From NCBI GenBank assembly GCA_016287565.1, contig JAEFAM010000005.1, forward strand, positions 1-64,000: DNA of 64,000 nt, read 5' to 3'. The DNA is from Clostridia bacterium. GTDB taxonomy: Bacteria > Bacillota > Clostridia > UBA1212 > UBA1255. This document shows, in pieces, positions 53,325 to 55,087 of the stretch. How positions within the stretch are numbered: the stretch's first letter is position 1; each line of letters starts with the position of its first letter. The position numbers were made by a program, and so were the translations under genes. The notes below the pieces were generated by a model. That model did not search any database and was not told the origin of the DNA. It saw only the letters and a list, made by a program, of their open reading frames with translations.

Positions 53325-53395
53325 TGCGGAATTGTGTAATGGCAGCACGAATGACTCTGACTCATTTTGTCTGGGTTCGAATCCTAGTTCCGCAG
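53325..53395 (+). tRNA. tRNA-Gln (anticodon CUG)
   Basis: Acceptor TGCGGAA/TTCCGCA; anticodon stem AATGA/TCATT with loop CTCTGAC; T-arm CTGGG-TTCGAAT-CCTAG; CCA not encoded. Confidence 0.92.
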
Positions 53396-53398
53396 CTG

Positions 53399-53436
53399 AA
53401 AAAACGCGTGGTCTGGCTTACAGATCACGCGTTTTT
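53399..53436 (+). terminator. Rho-independent terminator of tRNA-Gln
   Basis: AAAAACGCGTG-GTCTGGCTTACAGAT-CACGCGTTTTT. Confidence 0.88.
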
Positions 53437-53614
53437 GAATGATGCGTGCTTCTCACATGATGTGTGCCCTTCGGGCAAAGATGCGTGCTTCGCACATGAT
53501 GCCTGCCCTGACGGGCAAATGATGCGCGCTTCGCGCATGATGACGTTCGCTTCGCTCACTAATACAGCGGTATCAATCCATCATCAGCGCAGCGACATCA
53601 TCAGCGCAGCGCCA
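53437..53614. repeat. Degenerate ATGATG-spaced mini-hairpin array with terminal 17-bp direct repeat
   Basis: ATGATG-type spacers at 53439, 53457, 53478, 53496, 53519, 53537 flanking GTGCTTCGCAC, GCCCTTCGGGC, GCCCTGACGGGC and GCGCTTCGCGC stems; CATCATCAGCGCAGCG repeated at 53579 and 53596. Confidence 0.88.
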
Positions 53615-54988
53615 TTATTTCTTCTTCTTTTTTATCACCAGCAGCGCAACTACGGCGGCGGCAACGACTACGACACCGGCAACGATACCGATGATAAGGC
53701 CGGGATTGACGCCGCTCTTTTCGTTGACGTCAACTTCTTTGGGCGCCTCGGTAGCCGGCACTTCCGTGGCAACGTACGTAGGCGGAACGTAGGTGGGCGG
53801 CACGGGAGATGTGTACGGGGTGGCGGCGGTGGCGGGCGCTTTGGTGGGAGTAGCCTCCGGTGTCGGGAACGCGGCGTTTCCTTCGGCCAGCCACTTCTCA
53901 CCGAACGCCTTGGCGTCGGCTTCGGTGGCGAAGAAAGCTATGTAATACAGTTCATACTCGCAATGGGCGTTGGAGGGCGATAAGGGGTCCAGGCGTGAAT
54001 CGGCCAGGTAGCCTTTCCAGTTCTTGTTCTTGCCCATATTGACCGTAACGTACTGGCAGTCGTCGGTGTTGGCGTAGGTGAACTTCATATCCTTGGGCTC
54101 GTCGAATCCCATGTTTTCATCTGTCTGGAAGAAGAACTGTCCGTTCCTCCCCGCCTCGGAAACGTTAAAGCGGACGCCGATCTGGAGATATTTATAAATC
54201 TCGGAATTGACCTCGTATGCCTCGTCGTCCATACCCACCTGCCCCAGAGGAAGCCCGAAGTACGGGTCGCCGGTAGCTTCCATAACGATGACTTCGCACT
54301 TTTTGTCCGGGTCGAAATCGATCGATTCGATCTCGTTTCCGCTTGACGGGAAGAAAGTGCCGTCGAGGAATCTTTCGTCGTCATCGAATGCGAAAATGAC
54401 GGGGGGAACGTCGGAGGACTGCTCGGGTTCTTTGGTAGGCGTCGCAGGCAATTCGCTGCCGGAAGCGTTGTAATAGACTTCCAGGTCCATATTGAAGGGG
54501 GTGGTCATCTTGACGATGGTGCCGTCAGCAAGTTTGCAGAGGAACGTATATTTATGGACGCCCTCCAGTCCGGAAGCGTCTACAGTGATCCAGTAGCGGG
54601 AGCAGTACTCGAAGCCCTGTGAAGTGGCCGCGTTGACAACGTCCTCGCCGGTGGTGGCCTTTTGATCGGGGCTCATCTGGGGAACTCCGTCATCCACCAT
54701 ATAGCCGAAGGAATCGATGTCCTGGCTGCCGGCCACCCAGCCTCTCACGCCGAAACTCTCGGCGGGGCCGTTGATCACGGAATCGTGGTCGGTCAGATAG
54801 TCCGCGCCCTGGCCGTCTACGCCTACGACTTCGTTGTTGATCATCACGGAGTCGAATACCACGACGAATTTATTTTCATCGTCTACATAGTCGAAATAGT
54901 CTGTGACAGTATCGTCCGCGAAAGTGTGGATCAGCGCCATTGACGCCGCAATGGCAAGTACGAGAACGACCGATAGCAGTTTTTTCAT
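53615..54988 (-). CDS. Secreted, membrane-anchored surface protein of unknown function
   Basis: Signal peptide MKKLLSVVLVLAIAASMALIHTFA; P/T-rich stalk; C-terminal TM GLIIGIVAGVVVVAAAVVALLVIKKKKK. Confidence 0.8.
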   Translation of the reverse strand: MKKLLSVVLVLAIAASMALIHTFADDTVTDYFDYVDDENKFVVVFDSVMINNEVVGVDGQGADYLTDHDSVINGPAESFGVRGWVAGSQDIDSFGYMVDDGVPQMSPDQKATTGEDVVNAATSQGFEYCSRYWITVDASGLEGVHKYTFLCKLADGTIVKMTTPFNMDLEVYYNASGSELPATPTKEPEQSSDVPPVIFAFDDDERFLDGTFFPSSGNEIESIDFDPDKKCEVIVMEATGDPYFGLPLGQVGMDDEAYEVNSEIYKYLQIGVRFNVSEAGRNGQFFFQTDENMGFDEPKDMKFTYANTDDCQYVTVNMGKNKNWKGYLADSRLDPLSPSNAHCEYELYYIAFFATEADAKAFGEKWLAEGNAAFPTPEATPTKAPATAATPYTSPVPPTYVPPTYVATEVPATEAPKEVDVNEKSGVNPGLIIGIVAGVVVVAAAVVALLVIKKKKK

Positions 54989-55087
54989 CTGTCCGACCTC
55001 CAAAAAAGTTTTAAAAGTATGATGAAATTATAAACTTTCCGTCAAAACGTGTCAAACGGGATCTTCGCGCCATCAGGGCGGCCGGTA

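Follow-up and report, generated by a model that had tools for sequence, protein, structure and literature searches.

The BOX elements of Streptococcus pneumoniae follow a boxA-(boxB)n-boxC layout. REP/BIME sequences, of the GTAG and CGTC superfamilies (PMC3733652), and REPINs (PMC3116915) are built from short extragenic hairpins, and the ends of GTAG REPs often supply a stop codon (Di Nocera et al., PMC3733652). Gut-1 (Rfam RF01706) was described in 2010 as a noncoding RNA found only in human gut metagenomes, and was listed as certainly RNA (Weinberg et al., PMC2864571). It is filed in Rfam as an sRNA, and its consensus consists of successive mini-hairpins with GUGAAAU between them.

Here, we analyzed an array of mini-hairpins in a 64,000-nucleotide stretch of DNA (the window) from a Clostridia bacterium. 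The array occupies positions 53438-53614 and fills the gap from the terminator of a tRNA-Gln gene to the stop codon of a convergent gene at 53615. These borders had been named in the original prediction, which was read from the letters of the window, and were recovered with ARAGORN, as an inverted repeat and as an ORF, respectively. The locus is composed of the following features:

53325-53396, + strand: tRNA-Gln (anticodon CTG), 5' of the element (ARAGORN; Rfam RF00005, 57.6 bits)
53400-53436, + strand: intrinsic terminator of the tRNA, AAAAACGCGTGGTCTG / CAGATCACGCGTTTTT (inverted repeat, 94% complementary)
53438-53542, + strand: left arm, five mini-hairpins between six words, ATGATG five times and AAGATG once (sequence, repeats, covariation of the 12-nt units)
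53438-53542, + strand: stems of the left arm, in order GTGC.., GCCC/GGGC, GTGC/GCAC, GCCC/GGGC and GCGC/GCGC
53543-53563, + strand: core unit ACGTTCGCTTCGCTCACTAAT (also given as CGTTCGCTTCGCTCACTAAT), which is the family's most conserved block (matches in this genome and in other Clostridia MAGs)
53564-53578: centre of the element, which in other copies is AT-rich and flanked by ..CTAAT and ATTAG.. (by-eye comparison of 16 copies)
53579-53612, - strand: right arm, two inverted CATCAT units CATCATCAGCGCAGCG(A/C), a 17-bp direct repeat with 94% identity (same arm in other copies)
53613-53619, - strand: degenerate terminal word CATTATT, overlapping the stop codon of the convergent gene (TAA, 53615-53617)
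53615-55003, - strand: convergent gene, a flank outside the element (ORF; secreted or membrane-anchored protein with a C-terminal TM segment and a KKKKK tail)

The word ATGATG stands at 53439, 53457, 53496, 53519 and 53537, with AAGATG at 53478, and a repeat search recovered the dimeric spacing of about 39-41 bp in the left arm; both agree with what had been claimed. The extent of the array had been drawn correctly for the left arm only, missing the core, the centre and the inverted CATCAT right arm past the last ATGATG. Similarly, the hairpins that had been described with CTTCG-like loops are present, with loops of mostly 3-4 nt. In an Rfam scan of the window, only the tRNA reached its gathering score. 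CRISPR arrays, with identical repeats of about 23-47 bp and unique spacers of similar length, were ruled out, as had been anticipated, because the units here are 17-23 bp long and the spacers are recurrent hairpins. The convergent gene (53615-55003) seems to be one of a paralogous set encoding secreted proteins; the TM-KKKKK C-terminus recurs at several sites in the genus.

The stems had been said to differ between units while their pairing is kept, and this was borne out. In the 12-nt unit class, 94.1% of cells held a standard pair (vs. 65.9 ± 4.1 after shuffling), and the covariation score was 0.629 (vs. 0.127 when shuffled; slid versions reached at most 0.335), with none of 500 shuffles as good on either measure. 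Over all unit kinds, the mean stem length was 3.48, compared with 1.90 in the units' own shuffles. When the whole + strand was folded as a single RNA, it gained no stability over shuffles (z = -0.94); thus, the signal lies in local mini-hairpins rather than in one big fold.

The hairpins also exhibited a strand preference. Among distinct stem/loop combinations of Gut-1-type arrays, not all of which are independent, the strand that reads hairpin then word carried a GN(N)A loop in 44 cases and a TN(N)C loop in 2 (p = 3e-11), and a manual count of ATGAAG units gave a similar trend (about 28 vs. 1). Of 21 ATGATG-family units, 16 were more stable on the GN(N)A-favoured strand and none on the opposite strand with RNA parameters, whereas with DNA energy parameters the preference was weak (9 vs. 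4). The favoured strand reads hairpin then CATCAT, and its loops are partly of the GNRA type. A stricter rule, C(GNA)G in every loop, was rejected; AAA, AAC, TTT, ATA and CTTG loops are also present. Given the biases in loop and stability, one strand is probably the structured one, either as RNA or as ssDNA, two forms that the strand preference does not separate.

Copies of the array occur in this genome far beyond chance. The pattern ATGATGN{7,22}ATGATG had 63 matches in the genome (vs. 1 for the reversed control), and pattern searches, which may have missed a few, gathered at least 16 dispersed copies. The original prediction had proposed a dispersed structured repeat of REP/BIME kind, and had named as its refutation a local product with neither further copies nor kept pairing; the many copies and covarying stems favor the former. 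The core had 12 genome matches at two or fewer mismatches, each within a two-armed element. Across the 16 loci that we read, the number of units varies freely, their order changes, and arms occur in both orientations. By a crude ORF call, least exact near tRNAs, 8 of the 16 copies sit between convergent ORFs. Several copies lie directly behind an intrinsic terminator or within about 12 bases of one, three adjoin tRNA genes, and some start 0-13 nt from a stop codon; the adjacent gene in L002 takes its stop codon (TGA) from the terminal word AAATGATG (1465-1470). The copies showed no association with one gene class, and neither a mobile intermediate nor a clear target-site duplication was found among them.

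Of 31 genomes of the order, one contains the unit pattern GCTKCGCRCATGATG, and genomes of the same genus contain 1-12 matches to the generic ATGATG pattern, which is background. In five same-genus genomes, the tRNA-Gln locus is without the array. So is the syntenic gap in G002, where the homologue of the convergent gene is present and the gap has diverged. From this absence in relatives, the simplest reading of the sequences is that the array was gained in this lineage, presumably by insertion. A flank search for the exact empty site in 19 core-bearing genomes returned mostly tRNA and repeat matches and no clean pair. The G002 gap holds a GGGGACAGGTACC-type / GGGGACAG-type repeat in the place taken by the ATGATG array in the window.

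We found the core in 81 DNA stretches. Almost all of them come from Clostridia MAGs of rumen or horse gut, about 25 in number, in which the two-armed architecture is mostly the same and AATGAAG/CTTCATT replaces AATGATG. At one orthologous tRNA terminator, the same site carries an ATGAAG element in three genomes and a GTGAAG-punctuated array in two, with a different terminator stem in each. A viral origin was rejected because viral contigs are without the core. Core matches in Gemmatimonadetes, Woesearchaeota and Rickettsiales MAGs had no surrounding array and are chance or unexplained; in the Rickettsiales MAG (L094, around 7020), AAATGATG lies immediately 5' of an exact core. At a tRNA ending GAATCCACCTTCCCCCACCA (L161, L165, L167, L181 and L182), the whole terminator stem is swapped between related species with its position and pairing kept. 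At RUG/RGIG loci (e.g. L071, L115 and L123), many ATGAAG elements have a longer repeat (GTGAGTAAGTGCGCACTTAA.., then a AGCAGACTGA..TCAGTCTGCT terminator) before them, upstream of the core.

The window array (L006) is built like Gut-1, of mini-hairpins split by a fixed unpaired word, with ATGATG in place of GUGAAAU, but gave no match to the Gut-1 covariance model at E ≤ 0.1. At E ≤ 0.001, Gut-1 has 67 matches in this genome, 0-3 in same-genus relatives, and 7-72 in 18 of the 19 core-bearing genomes. In L056, ATGATG units continue into GTGATATT units within one array, and the latter match Gut-1 (57.3 bits). The Gut-1 arrays of this genome have two inverted arms too, with GTGATATT and GCTAAATT words mixed. 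The window array is a sister variant of Gut-1 and not a member, and Gut-1 itself resembles a repeat that spreads more than it does a lone RNA gene. Throughout this genome (G000), Gut-1 arrays (e.g. L200 780-2150, L201 750-2000, L202 750-1800 and L203 590-1140) use the words GTGATATT, GTGAGATT, GTGATGTT, GCTAAATT and GCGAAATT, and in some the two arms enclose a further repeated palindrome (AAACGCCCAG...CTGGGCGTTT).

How the copies spread could be explained in several ways. A RAYT (TnpA-REP) had been suggested as partner, and a true REP/BIME moved by such an enzyme would fit small inverted extragenic hairpins near 3' ends in a genome with three Y1_Tnp genes (L053, L054 and L055). However, an unrelated palindrome of the GGGGACAGGTACC type flanks these genes, and none of the three has an ATGATG array beside it in this draft genome of 143 contigs, from which a gene may have been missed. 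Y1_Tnp is also present in 4 of 6 same-genus genomes without arrays; among six ATGAAG-bearing genomes, three lack a Y1_Tnp match and three have one small, weak match each, with other palindromes. The foot of the hairpins carries neither a GTAG nor a CGTC tag, the words being ATGATG and CATCAT. We found no transposase tied to the element and rejected a RAYT as mobiliser by proximity, since the Y1_Tnp genes border other palindromes; movement by RAYT is very improbable. The array is extragenic, has many copies and occurs as inverted pairs, and these results support a REP/BIME-like character in kind, although by the RAYT test the array does not qualify as a REP.

Alternatively, the array might be transcribed when either the tRNA gene or the convergent gene is read through, and act as a structured noncoding RNA or 3'-UTR element, as assumed for Gut-1. 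This would suit an anatomical relative that is filed in Rfam as an sRNA and was listed as a certain RNA (PMC2864571), a favoured strand with partly GNRA-type loops and greater stability by RNA parameters, and copies at gene ends. Dozens of copies per genome, in both arm orientations and with shifting unit number and order, are harder to reconcile with an RNA element, as are the lack of a single gene class alongside, the position of the window array beyond a strong terminator, and close relatives without it; we consider this explanation unlikely. Replication without selection or a mobile element, through template switching (quasipalindrome correction), slippage of units and occasional gene conversion, is a less likely source. 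Hairpins reportedly arise and are maintained by template switching, with two-sided changes (PMC8794818). The orthologous loci L107 and L142, which are 98% identical, differ by such a change in one stem (C-G to A-T), as expected of one event, and unit number varies freely between copies. The L107/L142 change also counts towards the two-sided covariation of the stems. Such a neutral process leaves unexplained, however, how a composite element with a conserved core, two inverted arms and fixed words came to occupy 16 unlinked loci, and why about 25 other genomes share its core.

L053, L054, L055 and L156 contain RAYT-like genes near GGGGACAGGTACC-type palindromes or related GGGGACAG repeats. L145, L146 and L147 contain small Y1_Tnp-like genes of rumen Clostridia, with palindromes (e.g. 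GTAGGGGC..GCCCCTAC) in or beside the coding sequence.

On balance, we think that the array is probably one copy of a non-coding, non-autonomous and modular dispersed repeat, which spreads in a lineage-specific manner and settles behind terminators and gene ends. Each copy comprises a left arm of [AATGATG + mini-hairpin] units and the core, then a short centre followed by inverted units (hairpin + CATCATT) as the right arm. The dispersal, inverted arms and lineage-specific bursts argue for spread at the DNA level, driven in trans. Single strands folded into hairpins may be the form in which copies are made and moved, by a trans-supplied factor that would recognize the hairpin strand, and copies would persist where they do little harm, directly past terminators and stop codons. 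As a side effect, the copies could plausibly also influence the 3' ends of transcripts. The kept pairing may have arisen without selection, via template switching during replication, perhaps on top of mobility.

The repeat probably belongs to a wider superfamily in gut Clostridia with constant anatomy and a variable word (ATGATG, ATGAAG, GTGAAG, GTGATATT/GTGAAAT or GCTAAATT), Gut-1 included. More speculatively, the arrays with these words could be one undescribed superfamily of mobile single-strand-hairpin elements, moved by a dedicated enzyme that recognizes the GN(N)A hairpin together with the word, so that words diverge between lineages like recognition tags; we offer this extension only tentatively. 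The orphan family Gut-1 gains a context here, as an amplified, inverted-arm hairpin repeat with lineage-specific words and not a single-copy noncoding RNA. The arrays are also a natural data set on how perfect hairpins arise and persist, whether by selection or template switching, and they point to a possible mobilising enzyme in abundant, poorly studied gut bacteria.

Compared with described systems, the array shares with Gut-1 a fixed word of 7-8 nt (GUGAAAU / GTGATATT in Gut-1), the lack of a protein product, the same strand orientation, and amplification in the same genome. It differs in the punctuation word, and Gut-1 was not described in 2010 as a dispersed repeat with inverted arms. Like REP/BIME sequences and REPINs, it consists of short, inverted extragenic hairpins near 3' ends and convergent genes, and its terminal word, like the ends of REPs, can provide a neighbour's stop codon. 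In contrast to them, its words are not GTAG or CGTC, each copy contains many units of 17-23 bp, and no link to a RAYT was found. Finally, it resembles BOX elements in architecture, being modular and bounded by end pieces, with middle units that vary in number, but in the window element the repeated units are themselves hairpins, and they stand on both sides of the centre.
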